Virus record (IMG/VR): IMGVR_UViG_3300046804_004376
Coordinates: 1-40,020 of that record
Source of the DNA: a virus
DNA length: 40,020 bases
Direction: 5' to 3' (one strand)
The notes below the pieces were generated by a model, which was not told the DNA's origin, did not search any database, and saw only the letters and a program-made list of their open reading frames with translations. The translations under genes and the position numbers were made by a program. Positions 456 to 3,750 of this stretch are shown piece after piece. Within the stretch, counting starts at the first letter, position 1; the number at the start of each line of letters is the position of its first letter.

Positions 456-458
456 TTG

Positions 459-540
459 TACCCGTAACCAGACTTGAACTGGTATATCTTTCGATGGCAA
501 ATTTTAAGTCTGCTGTGTCTGCCTATTCCACCATACGGGC
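459..540 (-). tRNA. tRNA-Leu(UAA)
   Basis: Cloverleaf with acceptor GCCCGTA pairing with TACGGGT (one G-U), anticodon loop CTTAAAA (anticodon TAA), long variable arm typical of leucine tRNA, and a TTCAAGT T-loop. No CCA is encoded. It is the last tRNA of the array, one nucleotide from tRNA-Lys. Confidence 0.93.
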
Positions 541-541
541 G

Positions 542-614
542 TGTCCCCAGTTGGTCTCGAACCAACGACCCGCAGATTAAAAGTCTGCTGCTCTACCAAC
601 TGAGCTATAGGAAC
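542..614 (-). tRNA. tRNA-Lys(UUU)
   Basis: 73-nt cloverleaf. Acceptor GTTCCTA pairs with TGGGGAC with two G-U pairs. Anticodon stem GCAGA/TCTGC holds a loop with anticodon TTT, and the T-loop is TTCGAGA. No CCA is encoded. Third position A/T decoding suits the AT-rich phage genes. Confidence 0.94.
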
Positions 615-617
615 CTG

Positions 618-688
618 TTCTCTTATCTAGACTCGAACTAAAACTAAAGGCTTCAAAGGCCTCTGTGCTGCCATTACACCATAAGAGA
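618..688 (-). tRNA. tRNA-Gln(UUG)
   Basis: 71-nt cloverleaf with perfect acceptor TCTCTTA/TAAGAGA, anticodon loop CTTTGAA giving anticodon TTG, and T-loop TTCGAGT. Separated by 3 nt from tRNA-Lys and 4 nt from tRNA-Arg. Confidence 0.93.
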
Positions 689-692
689 AGAG

Positions 693-765
693 CCTCCCTG
701 GAAGGATTTGAACCTCCGACACGCAGGGTAGAAACCTGCTGCTCTGTCCCCTGAGCTACAGAGAG
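693..765 (-). tRNA. tRNA-Arg(UCU)
   Basis: 73-nt cloverleaf. Acceptor CTCTCTG/CAGGGAG, anticodon stem GCAGG/CCTGC with loop TTTCTAC giving anticodon TCT (reads AGA/AGG, codons favoured by AT-rich genes), T-loop TTCAAAT. No CCA is encoded. Confidence 0.92.
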
Positions 766-769
766 ATGG

Positions 770-842
770 AGCCTCGTATCAGAGTCGAACTGATGACCCT
801 CCGCTTACAAGGCGGATGCTCTGGCCACTGAGCTAACAAGGC
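770..842 (-). tRNA. tRNA-Thr(UGU)
   Basis: 73-nt cloverleaf with acceptor GCCTTGT/ACGAGGC, anticodon loop CTTGTAA giving anticodon TGT, T-loop TTCGACT. The discriminator T is followed by genomic CCA (769-767), the only member of the array in which I see an encoded CCA. Confidence 0.93.
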
Positions 843-845
843 AAG

Positions 846-920
846 TCGGACGAGTTGGATTTGAACCAACGATACATACCTTATAAGAGTACTTCCAAAA
901 CCAGGCTAGGATATCGTCCG
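846..920 (-). tRNA. tRNA-Ile(UAU), reads AUA
   Basis: 75-nt cloverleaf with perfect acceptor CGGACGA/TCGTCCG, anticodon stem GTACT/GGTAT (two G-U pairs), loop CTTATAA giving anticodon TAT, and T-arm GTTGG/CCAAC. Bacteria usually read AUA with a lysidine-modified CAU tRNA, so a UAU tRNA is notable. The D-loop is long (about 12 nt). Confidence 0.85.
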
Positions 921-927
921 TTATTCG

Positions 928-1001
928 TGGAACAAGTAGGACTTGAACCTACGATAACCGAATTATGAGTTCGGGGCCTTAACCAACTTGGCTATTGTTC
1001 C
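928..1001 (-). tRNA. tRNA-Met(CAU), elongator or Ile2
   Basis: 74-nt cloverleaf with perfect acceptor GGAACAA/TTGTTCC, anticodon stem CCGAA/TTCGG, loop CTCATAA giving anticodon CAT, and T-loop TTCAAGT. The G1-C72 pair argues against an initiator. Sequence alone does not separate elongator Met from lysidine-type Ile. The AUA-reading tRNA-Ile next to it makes Met more likely. Confidence 0.9.
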
Positions 1002-1002
1002 G

Positions 1003-1075
1003 CTGGCCCACCAGGTCTCGATCCTGGGACATTCGAATTAACAGTTCGACGCTCTACCAACTGAGCTATGGGCCA
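1003..1075 (-). tRNA. tRNA-Asn(GUU)
   Basis: 73-nt cloverleaf with perfect acceptor TGGCCCA/TGGGCCA, anticodon stem TCGAA/TTCGA, loop CTGTTAA giving anticodon GTT, discriminator G. It is the first tRNA of the array and starts 7 nt after the end of the leader RNA candidate. Confidence 0.93.
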
Positions 1076-1081
1076 ATAAAG

Positions 1082-1188
1082 GTACAGCAGACATTCCCTA
1101 GAACTGCACAATGGCCCAGATTCCACCACGAACCACCAATAAGGGTCTTGTGTGTTGTAACTATACCATCCTAAGTTGTCTGCTGTAC
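1082..1188 (-). ncRNA. candidate structured leader RNA of the tRNA array
   Basis: The two ends form a perfect 12-bp helix: minus-strand GTACAGCAGACA (1188-1177) pairs with TGTCTGCTGTAC (1093-1082). Inside, CACAA/TTGTG plus CCC/GGG can form a second arm with a large loop, and AACT/AGTT a small hairpin near the 5' side. No convincing ORF, tRNA or 5S rRNA consensus is present. The 5' end coincides with the start expected from the -10 box at 1196-1201, so the molecule would be a discrete 5' domain of the tRNA precursor. The closing helix could be a processing site. Function unknown; the inner folds are my own pairing by eye. Confidence 0.55.
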
Positions 1189-1195
1189 TGATTAT

Positions 1196-1225
1196 ATTAT
1201 ATACTAATTAAATATTTAATGTCAA
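1196..1225 (-). promoter_or_regulatory. sigma-70-type promoter of the leader RNA/tRNA array
   Basis: Consensus -35 TTGACA (1220-1225), 18-nt spacer, -10 TATAAT (1196-1201), minus strand. The expected start is about 1188-1189, the first base of the 12-bp helix. The -35 overlaps the TGA stop of the upstream oxygenase gene. Confidence 0.75.
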
Positions 1226-2385: not shown

Positions 2386-2460
2386 ATATGGAGTAGTTTT
2401 TTACAGTCTTGCTCAGGACTATACCAGTTTTTTAGAGTCGCTGTCTCCCCCGACTTTTAT

Positions 2461-2490
2461 ATTATACCAAAAAATATAAAAAAATGTCAA
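2461..2490 (-). promoter_or_regulatory. promoter of tRNA-Trp / hsp20 leader
   Basis: Minus-strand TTGACA (2485-2490), 18-nt spacer ending in TGG, and TATAAT (2461-2466), so it has both a consensus -35 and an extended -10. The -35 overlaps the TGA stop of the SDR-like gene. About 75 nt of AT-rich leader with two small AGTC/GACT hairpins precede the tRNA. Confidence 0.75.
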
Positions 2491-3152
2491 TCTTTTCCAA
2501 GTTTAATAACTTTACCGTTATTATTTACATCAGATTTAATTAAAAAAGAAGCAATTTCTTCTTTTGTTGCTAGTTGTGACGGGTCATTGTTGTAATTTGA
2601 CGGATCATTATCATAAAACGCTTGAGTATCATAAATTAAACCTGGAGCAAGAGAAAATACACTTTGATTTGGTCTTACTTTGGTAGATAAAGATGTAAAA
2701 AATATTTGTATTACTCCTTTTGCCACTGCGTAATTTATATCTGGTACTGGCCTATTTGCTGCAACAGAAGATATATATATAATTTTACCGTCATCCGATA
2801 ATTTTTCTAATATTTTTTTTGTAGCCAACATTACATTTACAACATAATTAGAATAGAACATTCTCAACTGAGAATCTGGAGTTGTAAAAAAATCACGACC
2901 AGGTGATGACGCTGGTAGTATTACTACTACATCATAAGACGCTAAATTTTCACAAAAATTATTTGTTGAGTCTGGAGAATCAAAATCCAAATACATCCAA
3001 TTTACATCTTCTCCGTATAATTCTTTCTTTAACAACATTTTTTCTTTGTTCCTGTAAGTTAAATCAATTTGATAATTGTTGTTTTTTAAAACTGATATCA
3101 TTTCTGGCACTATACTTGCTGTACCACTAATTATTAAAGATTTTTTAGTCAT
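2487..3152 (-). CDS. short-chain dehydrogenase/reductase-like protein
   Basis: 221-residue Rossmann-fold protein. The N-terminal strand and turn SLIISGTASIVPEM is a degenerate form of the TGxxxGxG nucleotide site. The catalytic set is recognisable: serines at 128-129 (YISSVAA), Y141 and K145 (NYAVAKG). SDR enzymes use NAD(P)H to oxidise or reduce alcohols, sugars or lipids; the substrate is unknown. The start at 3152 is preferred because it forms an ATGACTAA overlap with oxygenase copy C and places the first strand at the N-terminus. An ATG at 3167 is the alternative. The unusual glycine motif leaves cofactor binding open. Confidence 0.75.
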   Translation of the reverse strand: MTKKSLIISGTASIVPEMISVLKNNNYQIDLTYRNKEKMLLKKELYGEDVNWMYLDFDSPDSTNNFCENLASYDVVVILPASSPGRDFFTTPDSQLRMFYSNYVVNVMLATKKILEKLSDDGKIIYISSVAANRPVPDINYAVAKGVIQIFFTSLSTKVRPNQSVFSLAPGLIYDTQAFYDNDPSNYNNDPSQLATKEEIASFLIKSDVNNNGKVIKLGKD

Positions 3153-3750
3153 CGCCCTCAAACGCATCTACTTGGTTTATTAATTGTTTTTGCTTTCTGT
3201 CCAAGATAAACATCGGAGATGTATATCTTGTTTTTCCATATACTTGTGTTACTCCATGCAAATATTTAGAAGTTCCTGGATGAGATAAAAACATATTAGG
3301 TTTTGGCTTTATTCTTAAATTAGCTCTTGGGTAAACAACTTCCCCACCATCATAATCATCATTTATATAATAGATACATCCATGCAAAATAACTGGATTT
3401 TCTGAATCTATTTTATATCCTTCTTTATATCCATTGTCATCTTCATGAAGTCCAAAAGCCCAATCATCAGCGATTGCTTCATTTGCTGGCTTAAATGCAG
3501 AAAAATGTCCAGTATATCTATACATATGATCAGATTCTGGGTATATTTCTTTTAATTTACCTAAAACTATGTCCCAATATTCCTGATAAATTTCATATGG
3601 CATATTTTTTGTTCCTCTTTGAGGTACAATTAAATCTTCAAATTTCCATCCATCTTCTTTTTTGCAAATATCCAAAGTTTTTTGCCATAAATCTGTAGGC
3701 AAAAAATTTTCTATATAGAAAACATTTTCGTCTAAATATACTTTTTTCAT
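3145..3750 (-). CDS. 2OG-Fe(II) oxygenase (copy C)
   Basis: 201-residue prolyl-4-hydroxylase-like dioxygenase. Metal ligands H102-x-D104 (GLHEDDNGY) and H165 (YLHGVTQV), with R175 (GKTRYTS) as the expected 2-oxoglutarate contact, and the DDYDGGEVVYP strand between them. All key residues are present. Its ATG overlaps the stop of the preceding small gene as TAATG, and its own stop overlaps the SDR-like gene, which suggests co-translation of the three. Related to copies A and B in the N-terminal ENVFYIENF segment. Whether it acts on a virion protein, a host protein or a metabolite cannot be read from sequence. Confidence 0.88.
   Translation of the reverse strand: MKKVYLDENVFYIENFLPTDLWQKTLDICKKEDGWKFEDLIVPQRGTKNMPYEIYQEYWDIVLGKLKEIYPESDHMYRYTGHFSAFKPANEAIADDWAFGLHEDDNGYKEGYKIDSENPVILHGCIYYINDDYDGGEVVYPRANLRIKPKPNMFLSHPGTSKYLHGVTQVYGKTRYTSPMFILDRKQKQLINQVDAFEGDD

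Follow-up and report, generated by a model that had tools for sequence, protein, structure and literature searches.

Phages and prophages carry structured RNAs near tRNA islands, among them ROOL and GOLLD, whose function is unknown; in pull-downs, ribosomes are reported to bind GOLLD (PMC12286853). The RNA described here resembles ROOL and GOLLD in its setting, but whereas these are about 659 to more than 800 nucleotides (nt) long and form RNA nanocages, it spans 107 nt and has no Rfam ROOL or GOLLD match. Phage T4 likewise encodes small stable RNAs, rnaC and rnaD (species 1 and 2), which adjoin tRNAs within the phage tRNA cluster. Unlike those of our RNA, their matches to 23S rRNA are no better than those of shuffled sequences.

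Antisense systems offer a second point of comparison. As in trans-acting antisense sRNAs, pairing would be imperfect and directed at a target made elsewhere, but the target of the phage RNA would be rRNA rather than mRNA, and the molecule would form a closed ring that comes in two permutations. An antisense element to rRNA within a structured RNA is also found in guides of the snoRNA type (C/D and H/ACA), whereas the phage RNA has, on inspection, neither their boxes nor a pseudouridylation-pocket layout, and its pairing would be far longer. Helix 69, part of the rRNA element in question, is targeted by an antisense PNA, a synthetic molecule that inhibits E. coli growth and so provides a precedent for an effect (PMC7038079). 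PhiKZ014 (PMC10914614) is a phage factor directed at the 50S subunit in early infection, but it differs in being a protein that binds 5S rRNA. Among the open-access papers searched, none describes a natural RNA of bacteria or phages that acts on rRNA by antisense pairing, and a prior description elsewhere is possible.

Here, we report an RNA family that is previously undescribed, as judged against Rfam and the open-access literature. From its sequences, we consider it probable that its members are trans-acting phage antisense RNAs against host 23S rRNA that modulate ribosome assembly or use.

A structured RNA lies between a promoter and a tRNA array

The window, by which we mean the whole stretch of 40,020 nt of viral DNA that was analysed, contains the following features.

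1082 to 1188, minus strand: the whole putative antisense RNA, 107 nt, recognized by its inverted repeat, its promoter and homologues with a covarying helix
1177 to 1188, minus strand: 5' arm of the closing helix P1, GUACAGCAGACA; 12 of 12 pairs covary over 28 distinct helices
1082 to 1093, minus strand: 3' arm of P1, UGUCUGCUGUAC; same covariation over the 28 helices
1157 to 1175, minus strand: motif A, CUUAGGAUGGUAUAGUUAC, antisense to 23S helix 69/70 (taken as E. coli ~1910-1929), 1 nt short
1104 to 1115, minus strand: motif B, GCCAUUGUGCAG, antisense to 23S CUGCACGAAUGGC (~1962-1974) by alignment, 1 nt short
1094 to 1156, minus strand: body, linking motif A to the 3' arm; some of it is antisense to the 23S segment that follows the motif A target
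1196 to 1225, minus strand: consensus sigma-70 promoter, 12 of 12 positions matched
458 to 1075, minus strand: array of eight tRNAs (Asn, Met, Ile, Thr, Arg, Gln, Lys, Leu), by ARAGORN and Rfam

The perfect 12-bp inverted repeat (1082-1093 with 1177-1188, and 83 nt between the arms) on which the original prediction was built is indeed present, as is the promoter on the minus strand (TTGACA-18-TATAAT, 1225-1196, 12/12), from which transcription would start 7 to 8 nt on, at 1189 or 1188. The eight tRNAs (458-1075) of the array that it had described are also recovered by ARAGORN and Rfam, following the RNA in the same orientation. Because tRNA-Asn ends at 1075, its spacing to the helix is 6 nt and not the 7 nt first given. 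The 107-nt RNA folds better than shuffled sequences (z -3.2 to -3.5). Within 1082-1188, both ARAGORN and Rfam were negative for a tRNA or 5S core, in agreement with the first reading, and the covariance search that had been proposed as a check matched the RNA to no Rfam 15 family at curated or loose thresholds.

The RNA belongs to a family with a covarying closing helix

Relatives were sought by scanning a viral collection, with a 14-mer from the window RNA as the starting query. Matches in this first scan lay mostly in coding sequence, and in some contigs they extended to CTTAGGATGGTATAGTTAC inside dissimilar-looking RNAs with a closing helix of 12 to 14 bp. The pattern CTTAGGANGGTNNAGTTAC gave 81 stretches, and about 75 of them have a closing helix of 12 to 14 bp (44 distinct sequences); in L127 a closing helix is present but is not the regular one. 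Motif A, with the 19-nt consensus CUUAGGAUGGURUAGUUAC, thus marks a structured RNA of about 75 IMG/VR contigs that is absent from Rfam. At the variable position of the motif, G is commoner than A, and U is rare. An Rfam search of 12 related loci returned tRNAs only, plus a separate manA element (L189:2297-2482, minus strand) that shares its tRNA array with a copy of the antisense RNA; this manA element gave no signal of complementarity to 23S rRNA.

The original prediction had pointed to compensatory changes in the 12-bp helix as a check. Across 28 distinct homologue helices, all 12 pairs have two-sided changes. All 336 of 336 cells are paired, a proportion that is partly due to the picking of members for a long helix, whereas the variety of their sequences is not. 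In shuffles 52% of cells are paired, and 0 of 500 equal the observed result. Homologues that lose the pairing, which the prediction had named as evidence against itself, do not occur among the members found, all of them chosen for helices of 12 bp or longer.

tRNAs are found at 73 of the 75 loci, and because the nearest tRNA shares the strand of the RNA in 73 of these 73, usually 1 to 5 nt away, the transcribed strand is fixed. Most relatives lie after or between tRNAs, 1 to 5 nt from the tRNA ends, and a few loci have no tRNA nearby. This setting suggests that the RNA is released through processing of the neighbouring tRNAs. The earlier view of a discrete structured phage ncRNA with a possible action on the host is supported, whereas its essence as a leader of the tRNA array does not fit the position of most relatives.

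The carriers are mostly metagenome fragments, and their hosts are inferred. A blastn search of cultured phages found no family member; two weak matches in faecal phages were noise-like, one of them read in sequence. Among three related Streptomyces phages, the motif is missing from two even when 3 mismatches are allowed, and the third, Faust, has one 3-mismatch match.

Two parts of the RNA are complementary to 23S rRNA

The key feature of the 107-nt RNA, which lay beyond the view of the original prediction, is an extended complementarity to 23S rRNA. Motif A equals 23S GTAACTATAACCATCCTAAG reverse-complemented and shortened by one nucleotide; we take this site to be E. coli ~1910-1929, in helix 69/70. 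With its flank, this target site occurs in at least 119 genome contigs, and among those listed 80 of 80 are from Actinobacteria. Salmonella 23S and others examined have CGGU where Actinobacteria have CCAU, and the CGGU version of the helix 69 site is that of most bacterial phyla. The predicted duplex of motif A with 23S (-26.6 kcal/mol) has one bulged A, and the U variant bulges one U. A scan for uninterrupted antisense gave 0 matches. Motif A of the window RNA is partly hidden in the structure predicted for the RNA by itself, and pairing is predicted to bring a net gain of only -2.5 kcal/mol, against -2.4 to -19.3 in other tested members; the gain is weakest for the window RNA and L087. Base modifications of helix 69 in mature ribosomes could also hinder pairing.

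For the remainder of the RNA, motif A was masked, and the best complementarity of the body was sought across a 3,120-nt actinobacterial 23S, with 200 shuffles for comparison. In more than half of the members, no other part of the 23S matches as well as the segment directly 3' of the motif A target. In alignments, the body elements GAGUC, GAAGUC, UUACGC and GUGCAG pair in order along 23S ~1962-2030. The body score is matched by 0 of 200 shuffles in L087, L177, L027, L128, L144, L189, L174, L182 and L168, and the strongest complementarity is that of L182 (z 7.7). The window RNA is a modest case, its body scoring 56 against 45.4 +/- 4.7 for shuffles, 2 of 200 of which score as high. Body complementarity is not significant in L060, L129, L126, L180 and some permuted members, and unrestricted duplex folding against the whole 23S gave long duplexes without meaning. 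The family has extended predicted complementarity to a target encoded elsewhere, as would be expected of a trans-acting antisense RNA, and we strongly infer from the matching segments that the phage RNA pairs with host 23S rRNA.

The family has two circularly permuted architectures

Most members have the order helix, motif A, body, motif B (with a GUGC core), helix. In L007/L050, L125, L135, L155, L157, L168 and their copies, the order is instead helix, body, motif B, a few nucleotides, motif A, helix. The two orders are circular permutations of one another. The permuted form reads as a linear antisense that skips helix 71; in the normal form, these parts are connected via the closing helix. 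Two permutations are what would be expected of a ring-like antisense with two alternative junctions at which it can open. The permuted core also brought to mind ribozymes such as hairpin, hatchet and pistol, which were set aside on the 23S match.

The motif follows the rRNA type of the inferred host

Helix 69 differs between Actinobacteria and E. coli at two positions, and at these positions the motif carries either UG (dozens of contigs) or CC (10 contigs). The E. coli-type version, CTTAGGACCGTNTAGTTAC (CCG for UGG), was found in 10 contigs in the viral scan. Between them, the scans admitted V,N and N,G at the two positions. The wider one, with eleven further dinucleotides, returned the same ten CC contigs and nothing else, and the V,N scan of the viral collection had no visible background of chance matches. 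Predicted duplex energies are -26.6 and -27.7 kcal/mol for matched and -23.2 and -17.5 kcal/mol for mismatched combinations. Among 42 UG-type carriers, 12 encode the actinobacterial regulator WhiB, and all UG-type carriers longer than 60 kb are among these 12; it is encoded by 0 of 7 CC-type carriers, two of which are longer than 40 kb. The restriction to UG and CC, together with the split in WhiB, therefore indicates that the sequence of the RNA follows the rRNA type of the inferred host. Pairing would thus appear to be kept by change on both partners, a conclusion drawn from just two types, whose RNA scaffolds differ.

Nine of the ten CC-type contigs share another structured RNA, in which the motif lies in a hairpin loop with a varying closing stem. 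Because this RNA has motif A in common with the UG-type RNA and nothing more, functional contact may be limited to motif A. The E. coli-type motif in its hairpin loop is followed by further hairpins (L195-L204), and this second RNA had no Rfam match among the loci searched. No tRNA gene was found at the nine hairpin loci, one of which has a gene resembling a T4-type DNA polymerase. The tenth CC-type contig stands alone, with CTTAGGACCGTATAGTTAC (L202:4781-4799) followed by a strong GC-rich hairpin; this could be another scaffold or chance.

A third context is tmRNA. The motif, as TTCTTAGGATGGTATAGTT with the same one-nt gap, lies inside the tmRNA genes of five viral contigs (L008, L010, L014, L078 and L089), downstream of the tag reading frame, and 4 of the 5 contigs encode WhiB. 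Since these tmRNAs were found by the motif, its invariance in them is not independent evidence. A search for the 17-nt motif core that allowed one mismatch gave nothing in 24 actinobacterial genomes, nor did an exact search of 397, and the A-type 19-mer was not found in a genome collection of about 85,000 species.

A proposed antisense action on the large ribosomal subunit

We lean toward a model in which phage RNAs, tmRNAs included, present a ring-form antisense of host 23S helix 69-72, with one constant gap and fitted to the host phylum, and so seize ribosomes or block new ones. As far as sequence goes, the support covers an RNA family, a closed helix, bipartite complementarity, two permutations and host-type matching. 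The RNA would be made from its own promoter or within tRNA array transcripts, freed by processing at the adjoining tRNAs and the closing helix, and its antisense strands would be held as a ring by that helix. Motif A would pair with 23S ~1910-1929 (helix 69/70), leaving one target nucleotide bulged (A1918, or U1917 for the U variant), and the segment ending in motif B would pair with 23S ~1962-2030, with helix 71 looped out. Such pairing would disrupt the native helices 69-72, and because it is incompatible with the native fold, nascent or free 23S or 50S is the likely substrate. New large subunits or subunit joining would then be held back or remodelled, and host translation capacity would be turned to phage use. 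Transcription, binding in vivo and an effect on the ribosome are what we infer here. If the model is true, this RNA joins the known means of phage ribosome takeover, a testable function is provided for one or more classes of the unexplained RNAs found in phage tRNA arrays, a weak spot in 50S assembly is indicated, and uncultured phages acquire a sequence signature of their host phylum.

Other readings give the same features a different meaning. The pairing could act as a guide that marks the bulged A1918 or U1917 for a modification enzyme or nuclease, which would account for a one-nt gap that is invariant over three unrelated RNA contexts and for the absence of uninterrupted antisense. Inspection of members gave no box C/D or H/ACA layout, however, and among the enzymes sought (RNase III, RNA ligase and RtcB), RNase III is absent from the carriers, so that we hold a guide to be unlikely while keeping it in view. 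We find it rather unlikely, too, that the RNA protects or repairs 23S, as a shield or splint around the cut site, against host toxins of the MazF-mt3/mt6 class that cut helix 70. The carriers are actinophages, helix/loop 70 is where mycobacterial MazF-mt6 and -mt3 cut (PMC5930309), and the pairing segments flank the UUCCU site of helix 70, but the cut site itself falls in the stretch left unpaired, a search of 15 carrier records, often fragmentary, found neither RNA ligase nor RtcB, and motif A also occurs in CC-type phages of other hosts.

The remaining readings are more doubtful. That the RNA is just the processed 5' leader of the tRNA precursor, or a cap that protects it, as originally proposed, suits the window, where the RNA stands between the promoter and tRNA-Asn. 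With relatives that follow tRNAs, are flanked by them or have none close by, and since such an element would not keep 23S antisense through permutation and host-type change, we consider this quite improbable. The opposite strand is 23S-like and might be transcribed as a decoy that mimics 23S rRNA, but the nearest tRNA is on the antisense strand at 73/73 loci, and the window promoter reads that strand as well. The closing helices also contain G-U but no A-C pairs, a count that is biased by the choice of helices and on which an orientation-neutral recount was uninformative; a decoy seems very improbable. An endonuclease or integration site acting at the DNA level, like that of I-CeuI, is hardly credible. 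The motif resembles the homing site of I-CeuI in 23S rDNA, which overlaps the 23S target, but a covarying RNA helix, a strand fixed relative to the tRNAs, and a constant one-nt gap with a G-U tolerant position argue for RNA. An antisense RNA against host 23S rRNA is thus the reading that we prefer.

Other features of the window

A second perfect promoter, followed by a leader of about 70 nt with two hairpins, stands ahead of tRNA-Trp (2388-2490, minus strand). This leader was considered as a second copy of the RNA and rejected, its 23S complementarity being not significant (39/500). Small 2OG-Fe(II) oxygenase-like genes lie around the tRNAs (2-421, 1222-1686 and 3145-3750, the third by a weak family match), and an Hsp20 gene adjoins them. 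At a 2OG-oxygenase gene start, a perfect 16-bp inverted repeat (1682-1697 with 1745-1760) encloses a 47-nt loop.
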